Source of the DNA: Mrakia gelida
Lineage: Eukaryota; Basidiomycota; Tremellomycetes; Cystofilobasidiales; Mrakiaceae
Direction: 5' to 3'
Length of the DNA: 64,000 nt
NCBI GenBank assembly: GCA_024345305.1
Contig: BRON01000006.1
Coordinates: 496,001 to 560,000, forward strand
Below, piece after piece: positions 1,986 through 56,170 of the stretch. How positions within the stretch are numbered: position 1 is the stretch's first letter; every line of letters begins with the position of its first letter. The translations under genes were made by a program, and so were the position numbers. The notes under the pieces were generated by a model. That model saw nothing but the letters and a program-made list of their open reading frames with translations. It did no database searches and was not told the DNA's origin.

Positions 1986-4900
1986 ATGCTTCCTTTCCCA
2001 GCAGGATCGTACAGCCATCAGCCTTATCCCTCCAGCTCGTCGTTTCCAGGCCTCTCTCATATTCCAGGTCCAGCAGCAGCGTCGGCGGCTCCTCCTCCGA
2101 TGGATCTCTCGATATCATCCTCGACTCCGTCCTCTTCTGAAGCAGGCCCAAGTCAAGGAAAGAAGAGGTCTAGAGCTCCCTCAACGAGTCAGAAGGGAGA
2201 CGGAGATTTCGGCAGTGGTGAGGGAGAGGACAAGAAGAAGAAGAAGGGCAAGGAGAAGGCACCAAAGAAGGAGGAAGAGAAGGATGAGAAGGAGAAGAAC
2301 CGAACCGGGCGAGCTTGTCGTGAGTGCTTTTCTCAACCTCCCTCTGCCGTCGTATCCAAGCTCGCACATCATGGAACTGACCTCTTTGCGATCGCTATCC
2401 ATCCCAGTCAACTGTCGACGGCAAAAGGTACGGCCAAGCATGAGGAACGAGCTCGAGAACGTGTTGATTGATCCCTCCTTATCTCCGCTTACCTTTCCTT
2501 CCTTTCGGTCTTTTCTTACCCTTCCTCTACCAGATGAAATGCGAAGGAGGAGACAACCCTCCTTGCGCTCGCTGTAAGGCCAGCAACTCGGATTGTATCT
2601 TTAAGCCTAGGGCGAACGTGAGCTCGACTTTCCTTCGTTCTCGTTCGCTCGCTCTCATCGAGTCCGGGAACCGAAGCTGACCTGTCTTCCTCACTTCCTC
2701 GCTCTCTTTCTTGCTTGCCGTTCCAGGCTGCCATTCTTATCGACGACGCTCAGTGGTGAGTGCTTTCTCTGAACGGGACTTAGGTTGTGGTGTGCTCGAA
2801 CGGCCGTCGTGTTGTTTCGAAGCTCAGCTCTCGTCGAGCGACCCTCGACGCGTCGCTTGGACTGACTCTCTCCCTTTCGATCCTTCGTTCATCAGGCAGG
2901 AAATGGTCGAGCGCCGTCTAGGCTCCCTCGAATCGGAAATGAGAGCAGGTCACCACCGCCCTCCATCGCCAACTCGGTCGTCCTCAGGCATGAGCATCGT
3001 CCACCCTCCCTCCTCCTCCTCTTCCTCCCATCGTCGACTCTCCCAATCCTTCCCCGACTCCCAACAACCACTCCCTTACACCGCCTACCCTCAACCAACC
3101 CCCAATCAGTCGGACGTCAAGTCGGAGATCAGATTCGTCAACTCTCCACCGTGCTCTCCCACCTTCTTTTCAACTCCTCAAACCGCCAACGCGATGCCTC
3201 CTCCGCCTCTCCCTCCTCCACGGACAGCATCGCCTCAGATGACGGAACGGTTCAGGTCAATGGCCGATACGCTAGGGCTGACTCTCGAGCAGCTGCAGGA
3301 GACTCGGACGTCGATTTTCGACGGAGGGAGGGAGGTCGATATGACGGCTTTGACTTTCGAGGGAGTCATGACTTGCTGGGAATTGTGAGTGCATCCTCTT
3401 CGGCGCTCCCGTCGTAGACATCTGGAGCGGCATTCATTCGTACTGTCGGAGAGACGGCCGACCTTCGTTTCTCTCCTCGTCCTCGTCGCTCGCGTCCTCC
3501 CACTTCAGCTTTCACACCAACCTCCTCCCTCACCTCTGGTCCTTCCCTCTTCCACCTTCACCACGACCATCAAAACTCCTCCTCGCTGCGGTCTTAGCAG
3601 CAGCAACTCTCCTTCATCCCTCTCCCCAAATCACCTCTCTCCACGTCCAGACTTCGCACCTCCTCGATCTCGCTCTCTCCGACCTCGTTCTTGCTCCCCT
3701 TCGACCACCGCCCCCGAATCGCGACGGAACCTCGAAACCATCGGAGCCTGGCGAGCTGGACGATGTAGTTGGGCTGTGTGTGACGATGACCTGGTTGGTT
3801 GGACTGGAAGCAGGAGGAGAGACCGGTGGAGGGAGGAGAGGAGAGGTGTTGATGGGTTTGGCTTGGAGGTTGGCCGCTGATAAGTGTTTGAGGGGAGGAA
3901 AGGTTGCGGAGGAACATAGGAAACGAGTTTGGGAACTAGTGCAGGTGAGTCTCGTTTCCCTCGTCGCGAAATCCTGTTTTCTCGTCCTTCGTGCGAGTTC
4001 GACTCGACGCGTCGCTGACTGCGACTCTTCTTTCCCGTCTACTCTTCTCCGACTTCCGACCACCGTCCTGCAGATAACCGAACTCTTCCACTCCTCTCTC
4101 ACTCTTTCTCGACCACTCCTACCGGCGAACCCTCCTCCAGACCTTCCCTCCCTCACCACTCTCGCAACACCACCTCTCTTCCAAGCCGTTGCTGCCCTTT
4201 CGCGGATCTTGCACGGCCTCATGTCCTCGTTCGCGTCAAGATCATTCCCTAGCGTAGTCGAGATGCTGGCTTCGAGAGCACGAGGTGCGAGAGGGGACTC
4301 GAGAAGAGACGCGCTGGGTTATCAAGACGAGGTTCTCGTCAAGAGGTTCAAGCTTGGTGAGTTTGCCGCGCTTGCCTTTCTTCAAACCCTCGAGAGGACG
4401 TTCTGACCTTGCTGCTTCGACTGTAATCGCAGAGGTCGACGAATGGGCGAAGAAATGGCTCGGAGCCATCGCTTGTGAGTTCAGCCCTGCCTCCTTCTCC
4501 CTGCGACCCGAGCTCATGACGTCCCCTCCTCTCTTCCCTCGCCTCCTCAGCTTCAAATCTTGGCACCTCGGCGTTCTCGACCATCCCAGATCCAGCGGCG
4601 CTCAAGTTCGTTCGCTTTCCTCCCCCAGCTTGCGTACGAAACCGTCACTGACTCAACCCTCGCTCTCATCTCGACTCCCTCAGCTTCCTCGTCCTCATCT
4701 ACCACAGCAGTACCCTCCTCGGATCCATCATACAACGATGCAAGGCCGACGGGCCTACGGCGGACGACGACGCGTCCTGTCTCGCGACTTCGAGAGCGTT
4801 GCTTCAAGTTTTGAACACGAACGTCGAACTTGGCTCGTCGGCTGGTAGGCTTCCGTTGGGCCTTCTCATGGTGAGCTCCCCTCTTATTTTCTCACGCCTT

Positions 4901-5731
4901 AACTCGAAGCGAATGCTGAGCTGGCTCTTCATCCCTTCTCAGTTCTTCAAGCTCGCCGCGACCTTCGTCGTCGAAGGCGTCTCGACTGGAAAGACGTCCA
5001 GAGACGGTCAGTCTTTTCTCGTCTGGCCTTACCTCGCCGAGACCTTGACTGAGCCTCCTTTGTTTCTCCCTCTCAGACCTCTCTCTCGTCCAAACTCTCA
5101 TCCAATCCATCCAACTCACCTCCCCACCGACCTCCTCCCCTCCCGCCCTTCTCCTGGCCAGCCTCCTCGAAACCTACACCGCCGCTCAGGTAACTCAAGA
5201 GAACGTCATCATCACCACTCCCACTCCCACCCTCTTCTCTTCATCCTCCTTCCCCCAACATCAGCAAAACACCGGAAACAACGACGTCGGCTCTGTTCTC
5301 TCCGCCGTCCAACTCGACCAGCACGATTTCTTCGCTTCCCTCTCCTCGCCCTCTCGGATGGGACCTGGTCTCTCGGGAGTCGCCAGTCCTATGGGCTTCG
5401 GGGATCTGAACTCTCTGGGGATGGGTGGCGGTGGTGGTGGAGGTGTGGGAGCTGGCGTTGCCGATTTTGGAGCAGGGTTCGATTTGGGAGGAGGAGGAGG
5501 AGGAGGAACGGACGCGTTCGAAGGAGACGTTGCTTTCCCTACGTCAGTCCTACCTTCCGGTCTCGGCTCTGTCTCTCATTTCGAGTCTTTGCTTGAAACC
5601 TACTGAACCCTGGCTTTCTTGATCCTTTGCACAGATATCTACATACCAACTTCTCTTCAGCACCCTCAGCCGTCGCGTCCAACGACTCATCTTGGCCTCC
5701 CTCCTTCATCCCTGGATCTGGGAGGTGGTAG
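1986..5731 (+). CDS. Zn2Cys6 fungal transcription factor
   Basis: This is a nuclear DNA-binding regulator of the fungal binuclear zinc cluster class; its target is unknown. The N-terminus is Ser/Pro-rich, followed by a KKKKKGKEKAPKK nuclear-localisation-like stretch at about 2235-2270. The zinc cluster is assembled over three exons: ACLNCRRQK across two introns (2310-2436), then MKCEGGDNPPCARC and SNSDC (2535-2618). This gives all six cysteines with CX2CX6CX6CX2CX6C spacing. A short coiled-coil-like segment follows (QEMVERRLGSLESEM, near 2900). The middle region (3500-5100) reads like the helical fungal TF regulatory domain, and the tail carries glycine runs near 5430-5510. The stop is TAG at 5729-5731. 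About ten short introns interrupt it. The DNA-binding class is certain; exon edges in the regulatory region are less so. Confidence 0.8.
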
Positions 5732-6105
5732 AACGATCTAATGACATGTCAGTCTCTAACGTAGACTCTCGTGTCATGTTGTTCCTCCTCGCTGCTGGTC
5801 ACGTCGAAGAACGACGGGCGCTTCTGCTCTCCCTCTGCCTTCCTTGACGACTCTCGACGACGCGTTTTCTTCCGTCTTTTCCTTCCTAAGTTTTTCAGCT
5901 CGTTTTCTCGTGAGCTGATCCCGTAGATATCTTGGTCATCTAGCCGACGAGCTTCTCTGCCAGCGGTCTGTGAGCAGAACAAAAAAACAAGGAATTGACC
6001 GACGCCGGTCGTTTCAATCTGGGAGGCAGGCAGCCTGACCGTTTCTGGGTTCTGCTCTTTACCGCTATCCACACCCACACCCACAACCCTCACCACACAC
6101 ACAAC
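5732..6105. other. Intergenic region, 3' UTR and DUF1479 promoter
   Basis: This 374-bp tandem intergenic interval contains the 3' UTR of the zinc-cluster gene and the promoter and leader of the DUF1479 gene. A CA-rich leader (CACAC repeats, 6070-6104) lies directly before the ATG. I see no RNA gene or repeat. Confidence 0.4.
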
Positions 6106-8584
6106 ATGCTTCGCACTACACTCTCCTCTTCCCGCGTCCCTCAGACCCTCGCCCTTCGAGGAGTTCGACACACTTCCGTTCAGCGTGAGCTCTTCTCTTC
6201 CTCCCTTCGCCTCCTCTCCTCCAACTCATCACTCACTTTCCCTTCCTTTCGACTTCCTTTCAACTCAGCAGCATCTGCCGCACCAGCAGCGGATGGTGGA
6301 TCCATCATGGACGCTTTCGCTTCCACCTCTACTGGAGCTGCAGTCCTTCCCCAGCGATTCTCCGATCTCAAGAAGCAGGTGAGCTCGGCCTCTCCTTCCC
6401 TCTTTCTTTCCCTTGGGAGTTCACGAGCTGATCATCCCTTCTTCTTCTTCTTCCTCCTCATCAGCTCTGGCACCCTTCCCTGGAAACGCGATGGAAGGAA
6501 GTCCTCGCTGAGCTTGAGGTCGAGACCAAGAGGATCGTTACCGAGAGAGAGGGAGGGAAAGAGGTGAGCTCGAACGAGAGATGATCGGCGATTCGAAGAG
6601 CTGACCGTCCTTTGTTTTCTTCGTTCGTTTTGTTTCCTCGTTCGTAAGATGATCCCGAGACTTCCCTTCTCCCAGATCCAAGCTGGGAAGATTGATCCCG
6701 AGCTTTCGGAGGGGATTTTCAAGACTGGCTCTGTGATCATCGAGGGAGCTGTATCGGAACAGGTTCGTCTCGTTTCGTTGTTGTCGATCCTCTTTGCCTT
6801 TGCGGCAGTTGTGGTATGCTCGCTGGCTCATTCGCTGACTCAGGTTTGATTCCGACCTTTAGGAGGCACTCAAGTGGAAGGCCGATATTCTGGAGTACGC
6901 GAGAGTCAACAAGGAGCATGTTCGAGGTGAGTCCGTTTCGCGTCGAGTTCGTTCGCGACTCCAGTCTGATCTCTCTCCTCCTTCAGGATTCCCCGCCGAG
7001 GAGATCCAGGTCTTCGAGTTCTACAACAGCAAGTCTCAAACCTCAGCTCGAACGCATCCCAACGTCGTCGCGACCCAACGATGGCTCCTTAACTTCCTCC
7101 CTACGTCCAACAAGGCCGAAGCGAAGGTCTCTCTCCGAACGGTCATCTCCTACTACGACCGATTGAGGATCAGGACTCCCGGAGACGCCAAGTTTGCGCT
7201 GGGTCCGCACATAGACGGCGGATCTCTTGAGAGGTGGGAAGATCCTTGTGAGTACTGTGCAAACGAGCCTCGCGACGCGACTCGCGAGCTGAAGAGCTCA
7301 TCACTTCATGGATGAGTCGCCTGAGTTGCACTCAATCTTTAGCTCGAATGCGTACGATTCGAGAGTCGGGAACTGACCTCTTCGCCTCTTTCCCGGATTC
7401 CATTCTTCCTCAGCCTACCGTTCGTGCTTCGCCGACATCCTCTCCGCCGACTCGAAAGGATGGAAAGAGCACAACCCTTACGACATTACTCCTCGAATCG
7501 ATGCCGACATGGATATGTACAAGTTAGGGAAGGGAGCCTGTGGTGTTTTGAGGCCATGGCAGGTTCGTGTCTCTCCCTTCGCCCTCGTTCAACCAACCCA
7601 ACGCGTCGCTTTCACCTTCGATCGTTCCCTCGCTTCTTCGATCTCCAGAACCTCCTTACTGATCTACTCTTCGCACTCGGTCTCGTTCATTAGGGTTGGA
7701 CCTCGCTCTCGAACACAGGACCTGGAGAGGGAACCCTTCGAGTCTTCCCTAACGTTCGACTCGCGAACGCCTACGTGATGCTTCGACCCTTCTTCTCCCC
7801 AAAACCCGACGTCGGAGGTAGCCTGAAGGCCGAGGACTGGGCTGTGGATCTCGAGAGTACCGCCTTCCCTGGGAGTGCACCTGGACTTGGTGAGCCATCT
7901 TTTCTCTTCCTTCTTACCTCGATTTTCTTGTTCGTCGAAAATCGACGTGACAACTTGATACTGACTCGTCGACCTCCTCTCGTCGGATCTACAGGTCTGG
8001 AACTCACCGACGCGTCTCATCCTCATCTCAAGTTGGAAGAGACGATGACTTCGATGCCTCGAGTCAAGCCAGGAGATCAGGTTCGTTCACTCAATTCGAA
8101 GTGAGGCGTCGACGACGCGTCTTTCCCATTTCCGCTCTGATCCTTCGCACTTTCGTTGTTTTCCCAGGTCTACTGGTTCTCCGATGTTATCCACGCCGTC
8201 GAGAAGAACCACAACGGAACGGGAGACTCGAGCGTCCTCTACATCCCCGCCATTCCTCTCACCGAACAAAAGTTCGTCTCCCTCTCAGTTTCGCTTCGCT
8301 TCGCTTCACTCCCGTCTGACCTCTCTCCCTCCCCCTTCTTTCCCTGTCTCAGCGCCACTCACCTCCGTAAACAAGCCAAGAACTTCGCCGCCGGACTCCC
8401 CTCGCCTGACTTCCCCCAGGGACAAGGCGAGTCCCTCAACGTCGGTCGATCGACTCCTGCCAGCGTCGTCTCCCTCGAAGCTAGGAGAGTTCTCGGGCTG
8501 GAGAAGTTTGAGATCCCTGCGGATGCTGAGAAGGGGGAGAGGGAGGTCCTCGAGTCCTGGAACGCGAAGTTCCAGAAGGTTTGA
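6106..8584 (+). CDS. DUF1479 family protein (YbiU-like), mitochondrial-type presequence
   Basis: This protein belongs to the DUF1479 family, with a fold related to 2-oxoglutarate/Fe(II) dioxygenases; the substrate is unknown. Exon 1 gives a presequence rich in Ser, Thr and Arg starting MLRTTLSSSRVPQTLALRG, which suggests mitochondrial import. Family hallmarks follow in order: LPFSQIQAGKIDPELSEGIF (6665-6720), the GPHIDGGSLERWEDP block (7204-7245) with a candidate metal-binding HxD, GVLRPWQ-GWTSLSNTGPGEGTL (7545-7740), AYVMLRPFFSPKPDVGG, and VYWFSDVIHAVE (8168-8203) with a candidate distal His. Length, about 430-450 residues, is normal. The stop is TGA at 8582-8584. It has about ten introns. 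It lies just downstream of, and in the same direction as, the zinc-cluster gene. The HxD...H catalytic role is inferred from the family fold. Confidence 0.85.
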
Positions 8585-54206: not shown

Positions 54207-56170
54207 CTACTCGTCATCCTCCTCAGAGTTGATGAAGTCGCAGTACTCGTACGACCAGTACCTGGGATCGCGAGAGAAGGGACGATCAGCGGTCGTTTGA
54301 ATGGACGCGAGTTCGAGCTTCAGAGAGGGATGAGACTCACCACTGGTGACCCATAACCTTAAGGGTAAGAGCAGGGGAGATGACCTCGTCCATCAGGTAG
54401 CTGTGTTTTCGAATGGAGGGTAAAGCACAAGGTGAGTGGGTTGTTTCTGCGATTCGTTCGCGAGAATCGAAAGGACGCGGTGAGAGTGCACGTACAGGAG
54501 ACGGAACGAAGGGAAGGCGACGGCGACTGGAAGGGAAGGAAAGGGAGCGAGTCGTTAGCGATCTGAGCTGAGGTACATGTCGAGAGGGACGGAAGACGCG
54601 TCTGCAAGCTCGAGTTGAGTCGAGAGACGGCTCCGCGAGGCTTCGAAGTCGGAAAGGGACTCACTGAGGACGAAGGCGGGGGTGATGGTCCAGATCAACT
54701 CGATGAGGGTTCCCTGAGGGTAGGAGAAGGCGAACGAAAGGTCAGCGAGAAGAATGGGCGGTGCAGAACGACGGGAGGAAGAAGGGTGGGTGCGCGCGAA
54801 TCGTCTCCCATCAGACTCCCGCCGCCGAGAAGGACCGCAACGATCATATGAGAAGAAAGATAGTACTCACGTGGTTGAGGTACTTGGAAGAGATGGGGTT
54901 CTTGCTGATCCTGAATCGGTAGAGGATGGCTCCCATGGCGTAAACAACTCCGACCATGATGGCGACGACGAAGTACATGACGGCGTTGTGAAGCTCGGTG
55001 ATACCCTCCATGGTGACGGAGGCTCCATCCTGGAATCCAAATTGCCACGGCTCAGGCGCATCGAGGTTGATCATACCGAGTCCGGGGAGGGCCTGAGGTA
55101 GGAAGAGGGAGAGGGAGGGAGGGAGGGAAGGGAGGGATCGGGTTGAATCGAGGTGAAGGTTGAGGCGAGCGAGGAGAAGAGTTGAGAGTTTGGTGGTGGT
55201 GGGTAGGTGAATTTAGTAGTGAGTTGGTGGATAAAGAGAGTATTGACGAGAGGAGGCATATATGAACAGGCGATGAAGGAAGAGAGGATGTTCGGTGGTC
55301 AGCTCGCGAAGGAAGGGAAGAAGGAGGCAGGTCGGAGGGCTGAACGAGCTGCTGGCTTTGAAACGTACAGAGTAAGCAATCTGGTTCAACTTGGATCCGA
55401 CGACCGAGTTGGAGGGGACTCCCTTGAGAAGCTGAGCGAGAGCCTAGAGGAGCATCAAAAAAGGGACGCGACGAAAGAGAGAGAGAGAAAAGGTCAGCTC
55501 GAAGAAGGAGGAAGAAAGGGACGAGGGCTGATCATCCTCTCTTGGAGAAAACACGTACCTTCTGGTTGGCCTTAGAAGCCTGAACCGAGTTGTTGGAAGA
55601 GTTGAAGATCTCCTCGACCGAAGCGAGTCGGGTAGAGAGAGCCTAGAGGGAACGAAGAGAAGGGAAAGCAAAGGTCAGGTCAACTCGGATCGGAAAGGGA
55701 CGAGGTCAAGGTCCTCATGCTCCCTTCTCCCTCCTTCTCGTATGGGTTGGAGACTGACCTGGTTTCCAGCAACCTCAACCTTGGCAGCTTGAAGAGCCTT
55801 GCTGACGTTGGATCTGCTCAAGGACTGGGTAGGAGGACATCGAAAGAGCAGACGAGATGGAGTCAGCGTCCAATCGGGAAGGATCGTAATCCAGTCTCTC
55901 TTTCGTCCTCGTTTTCTCCCCTTATCTACTATCTCGAAGTCCTTGACGACCACCCTACATCCTCACTCGCTCCTTGACAACGACGTTACGACCAAGAAAG
56001 GAGCGAAAGAAACGAACCTTGAAAGCCGAAGCGGAGAGGAGGGAGGAAGGGGAGGGCGAAGCCTTGAGGGGGGAGGAGGTGGAAGCGAATCGAACAGAGG
56101 AGGGAGCAGCAACGACTCGTCGAGCGATAGCGGCACCCGAAGATCGAGCGATAAGAGGAGCGAACACCAT
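54207..56170 (-). CDS. COX2A: Nuclear COX2A-like gene: N-terminal half of cytochrome c oxidase subunit 2
   Basis: This encodes the two-helix membrane half of Cox2 (complex IV, inner membrane). The ATG at 56170 starts a presequence (MVFAPLIARSSGAAIARRVV). Four small exons give about 132 extra residues. The Cox2 part then follows: MINLDAPEPWQFGFQDGAS and TMEGITELHN, helix 1 (MYFVVAIMVGVVYAMGAILY), KNPISSKYLNH, helix 2 (LIELIWTITPAFVLIAVAFP) with the Glu expected at the K-channel entrance, LLYLMDEVISPALTLKVMG, and the aromatic loop HQWYWSYEY. It stops seven codons or so later with an acidic tail (SEEDDE, TAG 54207-54209). The whole CuA domain is absent. Nine exons, 264 residues. This is the COX2A layout of chlorophycean algae. 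Introns and codon use show it is a nuclear gene and not a recent mitochondrial insertion. The CuA partner must lie elsewhere. Confidence 0.9.

Follow-up and report, generated by a model that had tools for sequence, protein, structure and literature searches.

Mrakia gelida very probably makes subunit II of its cytochrome c oxidase (Cox2) from two genes, cox2 having been split between the first and second strands of its CuA domain, with both halves working from the nucleus. One half, COX2A, lies in the window, by which we mean the whole stretch of 64,000 nucleotides that was analysed (C6:496001-560000, within an assembly of 34.86 Mb in 25 contigs). The other, COX2B, was found elsewhere on the same contig. 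This reading rests on the two genes with their spliced frames, the complementary coverage of Cox2 by their products, the CuA ligands, the purifying selection on COX2A, the corresponding pair in Mrakia frigida and the published absence of cox2 from Mrakia mitogenomes. The initial annotation of the window had proposed that a fungal lineage fragmented cox2 and moved at least the 5' half to the nucleus; the proposal is supported and now extends to both halves and to a duplication of COX2A.

The N-terminal half of Cox2

COX2A in the window (copy 1) is a nuclear gene on the minus strand (56170-54207), the spliced frame of which is open over 264 codons and ends with the stop codon TAG. Its features, in window positions, are as follows.

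54207..56170, minus strand: COX2A (copy 1), 264 aa encoded by nine exons, with TAG as stop codon
56018..56170, minus strand: exon 1, residues 1-51, with the start codon and the beginning of the presequence, which is basic and free of acidic residues; the paralogue on contig C1 has a similar exon
55759..55824, minus strand: exon 2, presequence, residues 52-73
55559..55642, minus strand: exon 3, presequence, residues 74-101
55369..55443, minus strand: exon 4, later presequence, residues 102-126, well conserved in the paralogue
54871..55092, minus strand: exon 5, residues 127-200, with the last presequence residues, the start of the mature protein (D137APEPWQ) and the first membrane helix
54665..54713, minus strand: exon 6, second membrane helix, first part
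54496..54526, minus strand: exon 7, second membrane helix, next part
54341..54400, minus strand: exon 8, remainder of helix 2 and approach to the first CuA-domain strand (LMDEVISPALTLKVMGHQW)
54207..54261, minus strand: exon 9, YWSYEYCDFINSEEDDE with the stop codon; a short acidic tail takes the place of the rest of the ancestral CuA domain

All eight introns run from GT to AG, have a GTNNGT donor and an acceptor of CAG or TAG, and measure 79-276 bases. The tryptophan codons are TGG in four of four cases and TGA does not occur in frame, in line with the spliceosomal introns and nuclear codon use that had been described from the sequence. The description of a nine-exon gene that encodes both Cox2 helices and then stops was likewise confirmed by the splice sites, the open frame and a full match to PF02790. 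Every family-specific protein block listed in the initial annotation was found in COX2A, the last of them running on as YEYCDFINSEEDDE before the stop.

The transmembrane domain of Cox2 (COX2_TM, PF02790) is complete, being matched at positions 1-88 of 88 (E 2.8e-32). The CuA domain (PF00116) is matched at positions 1-21 of 120 only, in a stretch that includes GHQWYWSYEYCDF. COX2A is the gene of an N-terminal half with both membrane helices and without CuA ligands. The statement that it lacks the CuA domain holds for nearly the whole domain but not for the first strand, which is present, and the break comes behind this strand, not directly behind helix 2.

The mature part is preceded by a predicted presequence of 136 residues before D137, with 14 basic and three acidic residues and none of the acidic ones among the first 60. 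Since the database model of COX2A from M. frigida begins at an internal Met and has no presequence, exons 1-4 rest on gene prediction, which is backed by the matching introns of the paralogue and by a search with the presequence. This search of the genome for a donor gene gave 14 matches, six of them in the two COX2A genes, and no donor was found; the best match outside COX2A (E 0.009, contig C18) is of low complexity by eye and lies in no recognisable gene.

The window is an ordinary nuclear chromosome. Ten long reading frames of the 45 listed were given to Pfam, and the two above the cut-off belong to exocyst Sec6 and polyprenyl synthetase. The nuclear status of both halves is evident from the spliceosomal introns in both genes, the chromosomal neighbours in the window and COX2A codons that fit the standard code.

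The CuA half

A search of the genome with PF00116 gave one locus with two exon matches (C6:206724-207152), and a search with the full protein added no second locus. The searches thus gave no PF00116 gene other than COX2B, which consists of six exons (C6:205983-207318, plus strand) and encodes 196 aa. A separate gene for the CuA domain alone had been predicted from the window, and it is present in M. frigida as well. COX2A does not continue in frame into a CuA domain, a course excluded at the DNA level by the position of COX2B 343 kb from the window copy and on the opposite strand. A missed CuA exon downstream of COX2A was also considered and rejected: CuA-motif patterns had zero matches in the six frames of the window, and PF00116 is matched only at C6:206-207 kb.

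The COX2B protein starts with a basic N-terminus, presequence-like with six basic and two acidic residues among its first 60, and continues with a linker without Pfam match and then PF00116 (positions 17-120, E 1.1e-47). The N-terminus includes an R-A-F-S-S stretch resembling an MPP site. All six CuA ligands are present (H130 and the loop C165-S-E-L-C-G-V-Y-H-G-F-M176). A segment around residues 28-46 is hydrophobic, but too weakly so for a clear sorting signal; its windows lie outside the top three (1.18-1.30). In the structure model of COX2B (mean pLDDT 56.5) only the copper core is of good quality, residues 13-80 being under 50, and the model gives no firm indication on the N-terminal extension; Foldseek searches with the model matched Cox2 chains, including the COX2B of Chlamydomonas and Perkinsus.

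The two proteins tile PF00116, with positions 1-21 on COX2A, positions 17-120 on COX2B and an overlap of five positions. One stretch of mitochondrial Cox2 (EDGESI in Cryptococcus) is aligned both with the acidic tail of COX2A and with the beginning of the CuA portion of COX2B, after which COX2B continues with V-S-F-D-S-Y-M. The halves are complementary, the cut follows the first CuA strand, and the match ranges of the Chlamydomonas chains agree.

The gene just downstream of COX2B (4677-7100 of its extracted locus, C6) reads like one for MIC60/mitofilin, another protein of the inner membrane.

A second COX2A gene and its selection

The genome search with PF02790 revealed a second COX2A gene on another contig (C1:3134758-3132845, minus strand) with nine exons and 255 aa. 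It ends with YEYCDFINSAEDDEE and a stop at the same position as in the window copy. The two genes have seven of eight intron positions in common and one private intron each. In the C1 protein, 126 residues stand before mature Cox2; 12 are basic and one is acidic, with none acidic in the first 60. Computed on gap-free stretches only, the two copies differ in their mature part by a dN of 0.064 and a dS of 0.945 (ratio 0.07, 123 codons), and in their presequence by a dN of 0.101 and a dS of 0.677 (ratio 0.15, 38 codons). Selection appears to have kept both copies and their early stop intact.

Relatives of both genes

The protein searches list the best 120 of 3,050 matches, of 7,437 (COX2B; those with E of 0.001 or less among 7,996 candidates scored) and of 2,587 (COX2A profile). 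The top match of COX2B is P0121 of M. frigida, a protein of 196 aa that is 95% identical over 100% of the length; two sources label it differently, as 'Cupredoxin' and as cytochrome c oxidase subunit II. The top match of the COX2A profile is P0209, also of M. frigida, which covers 50% of the query with 132 residues at 99% identity, has the same C-terminus and is labelled 'cytochrome C oxidase subunit II, transmembrane domain-containing protein'. These matches mark the genome as that of a close relative of M. frigida (Basidiomycota, Tremellomycetes, Cystofilobasidiales, Mrakiaceae). The annotations name both domains, and nothing in the rows ties them together as parts of a single subunit. The longest contig given for P0121 and for P0209 has 362,040 bases, and the genes are therefore probably linked in M. 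frigida. Fragments came from further relatives: P0001 is part of a COX2A (79% over 47% of the query) with an apparent intron right after YEYC, and P0130 resembles exon 4 of COX2B (90% over 47%).

Apart from Mrakia, the best organism-named rows among the 120 listed per search are basidiomycetes, Cryptococcus for COX2A and Rhizoctonia for COX2B. Two red algae appear lower down among the best 120 of the 7,437 COX2B matches, and two rows among the matches listed carry bacterial names. Among solved chains, COX2A matches four fungal Cox2 proteins at E values of 7.1e-41 to 1.8e-38, the unsplit Cox2 of mung bean at 4.9e-41 and the split chain of Chlamydomonas at 7.5e-29.

Trees were calculated with 28 hand-picked sequences of the 171 homologues, 29 having been chosen and one being too short for the alignment. 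The joined Mrakia chain falls among the rows of the fungal side, which separate from the red algae with a support of 99/95. Together with the long-branched P0184 it stands outside the other 22 fungal-side rows (94/95) and not beside Cryptococcus, and in the tree of the COX2A half its place among the fungi is not settled. P0184 is an unsplit, full-length Cox2, which both trees join to Mrakia (98/92 and 96/94); it may be a relative from before the split or a case of long-branch attraction. These comparisons lend no support to a transfer from an alga with split genes, and the trees place Mrakia no more exactly than on the fungal side.

The mitochondrial genome

A search for cox1 in the assembly found none, which indicates that the mitogenome of this strain lies outside the assembly. 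According to the accessible text of a report from December 2025, the mitogenomes of M. gelida and M. robertii are linear and devoid of nad3, nad4L, cox2 and atp8, and neither cox2 nor atp8 was identified in Tausonia pullulans (PMC12749792). The report considers that gene absences may be characteristic of the Mrakiaceae, and its accessible text gives no nuclear location; it also lists 'cox1 and cox6' among its results, a sign of rough edges in its annotation (PMC12749792). For the genus, this reported absence from two Mrakia mitogenomes contradicts the idea that a complete cox2 persists in the mitochondrion. The mitogenomes of Filobasidium, from another order of the Tremellomycetes, are described as having kept cox2 (PMC9059411), so that the loss in the Mrakia lineage is probably derived. 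The split nuclear genes are a possible answer to the published puzzle of the cox2 missing from Mrakiaceae mitogenomes.

The nucleus also holds a fragment of cox3 (C8:1516680-1516850) with 57 codons matched, two in-frame TGA codons and 43% GC. This is stray mitochondrial DNA which, in contrast to the adapted COX2 genes, is unadapted. Two other genes reported as missing from Mrakia mitogenomes, atp8 (PF05933) and nad4L (PF00420), had no match in the nuclear genome, in a search that short genes split into exons could escape.

Alternative explanations

Three other accounts of the two genes have to be weighed. COX2A and COX2B could be NUMTs, nuclear copies in decay, with a functional cox2 still residing in the mitochondrion, and the cox3 fragment does show that mitochondrial DNA has entered this genome; moreover, the mitogenome of this strain lies outside the assembly. 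We nevertheless consider such an origin very improbable and rejected it. In place of decayed frames, a mitochondrial code and absent selection, the genes have introns with clean splice sites, predicted presequences, no TGA and a dN/dS of about 0.07 between two COX2A copies, and M. frigida has near-identical proteins, quite apart from the two Mrakia species in which mitochondrial cox2 is reported absent (PMC12749792). The least probable account, to which we give hardly any weight, is that trans-splicing or protein splicing rejoins the halves into one normal Cox2 chain. It would suit halves that tile with so little overlap. COX2A, however, has its own stop in the last exon and COX2B its own ATG and presequence-like exons, and the split Cox2 of other lineages is described as two chains (PMC5664110, PMC5855863).

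Horizontal transfer from an alga or protist with already split genes would account for the one common cut position reported for algae, alveolates and scoliid wasps (PMC5374615), and the joined tree, with Mrakia and P0184 outside the remaining fungal rows, leaves room for it. The fungal side of the tree, the basidiomycete best matches and the stronger similarity to fungal Cox2 than to the split chain of Chlamydomonas all argue against it, with the qualification that unsplit mung bean Cox2 matches as well as the fungal chains do. Transfer was rejected on these grounds and seems to us very unlikely.

Comparison with known split and nuclear cox2

A split nuclear cox2 has been described in chlorophyceans and alveolates and a split mitochondrial one in scoliid wasps, with one reported site (PMC5664110, PMC5374615). 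As in Mrakia, both halves in the chlorophyceans Chlamydomonas and Polytomella are nuclear and give separate proteins, cut in the same region, with a soluble CuA half. The solved Chlamydomonas chains 2B and 2C (9f5x) match COX2A and COX2B of Mrakia, respectively. Long presequences are a further likeness, with 130 aa reported for Polytomella Cox2a (PMC5855863) and 136 predicted for Mrakia COX2A. The Cox2b of Polytomella, in contrast, is described as being without a cleavable presequence (PMC5855863), unlike the presequence-like N-terminus of Mrakia COX2B. Chlorophycean COX2A also carries an extension of 20 residues where the Mrakia tail has a few acidic ones, and Mrakia differs in being a fungus and in its duplicated COX2A.

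Alveolates (apicomplexans, dinoflagellates and Perkinsus) are also reported to have both halves in the nucleus (PMC5664110), and chains 4P and 4N of the Perkinsus complex IV match COX2A and COX2B; the similarity is weaker (E 9.3e-06 for COX2A against 4P) and the lineage is unrelated. The scoliid wasps Campsomeris/Dielis, compared here by description, are opisthokonts with two complementary halves and the cut position reported for protists (PMC5374615), although both of their halves reside in mtDNA and those of Mrakia are nuclear with spliceosomal introns. Two undivided nuclear versions share other traits with Mrakia. Legume nuclear cox2 resembles it in its long presequence, lowered hydrophobicity of the first transmembrane helix (TM1) and lack of Trp at W56, and the engineered allotopic yeast Cox2-W56R in the latter two; both, however, are one full-length chain and Mrakia has two.

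The nuclear atp9 of filamentous fungi is an exception to the statement that no such transfers had been described in fungi. That statement dates from 2017, when recent functional transfers were described in protists and land plants and not in animals or fungi (PMC5664110). Our search of the open-licence literature, as far as papers were listed and their texts accessible, found no fungus for which a nuclear or a split cox2 is described. What is new here is that the lineage is a fungus, its origin probably separate, COX2A doubled and the start of COX2B presequence-like, the split arrangement itself being already known. That an apparently independent fungal case has its cut in the same loop speaks for this loop as the place where Cox2 can most easily be broken and still be rebuilt.

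A probable two-piece Cox2 and its proposed assembly

The cut in the mitochondrial cox2 would lie in the stretch that links strands 1 and 2 of the CuA domain, with both halves nuclear now. COX2A, from the window copy and the C1 copy, would supply the two-helix membrane anchor and the first CuA strand, and COX2B the remainder of the copper domain. Both would be synthesized in the cytosol and imported. COX2A would enter through TIM23 by means of its long presequence, with helix 1 passing into the matrix for re-export by Oxa1 and helix 2 being held and released sideways, and COX2B would reach the intermembrane space. The chains would then assemble non-covalently, with the electron-receiving aromatic patch on COX2A and CuA on COX2B. 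The patch presumably corresponds to the region of bovine Trp104.

For allotopic Cox2, the published accounts describe entry through TIM23, a softened TM1 that reaches the matrix, re-export by Oxa1, sideways release of TM2 and a dispensable Cox18 (PMC5855863, PMC11917479, PMC12005268). Mrakia COX2A, with its long predicted presequence and lowered TM1 hydropathy, fits this route. The genome contains one match for Cox20 and one locus of the Oxa1/Cox18 family (C16:857454-858402), which reads like OXA1 with a long basic tail. A second locus of the family, for Cox18, was not found in the genome, in a search made without a fungal control and one that a diverged, intron-split Cox18 could escape. This suggests, as a lead only, that Cox18 was lost, in keeping with a Cox2 whose synthesis has left the mitochondrion.

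More tentatively, and with the balance tipping slightly towards doubt, the whole family Mrakiaceae may have lost the mitochondrial cox2 and may run complex IV on a wholly nuclear, two-piece Cox2 with two COX2A isoforms, the CuA-exporting Cox18 branch being lost too. If true, this would be the first nuclear and the first split cox2 in fungi, of independent origin and cut at the site that algae, alveolates and wasps have in common. Independently of this wider reading, the two Mrakia genes give the allotopic COX2 work done with baker's yeast in the laboratory a counterpart from nature in a fungus, with two chains, a long predicted presequence, a somewhat softened TM1 and no Trp at W56, and as these yeasts are culturable, the import and assembly of a two-piece Cox2 are open to direct testing.

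Hydropathy was compared with 170 of the 171 full-length homologues, which are presumed to be mitochondrial. By Kyte-Doolittle values, TM1 is lower in 32/170 homologues than in COX2A copy 1, in 14/170 than in copy 2 and in 3/170 than in P0001. The softening of TM1 is modest and within the range of the 170 homologues, so that a special softening is only partly supported. TM2 has no consistent shift, with 16/170 homologues lower than copy 1, 101/170 lower than copy 2 and 151/170 lower than P0001. At the position of yeast W56, human Cox2 also has a Tyr according to the yeast allotopy literature (PMC11917479, PMC12005268). The homologues carry W there in 162 of 171 cases, Y in seven, F in one and a gap in one; both Mrakia copies have Y and P0001 has H.
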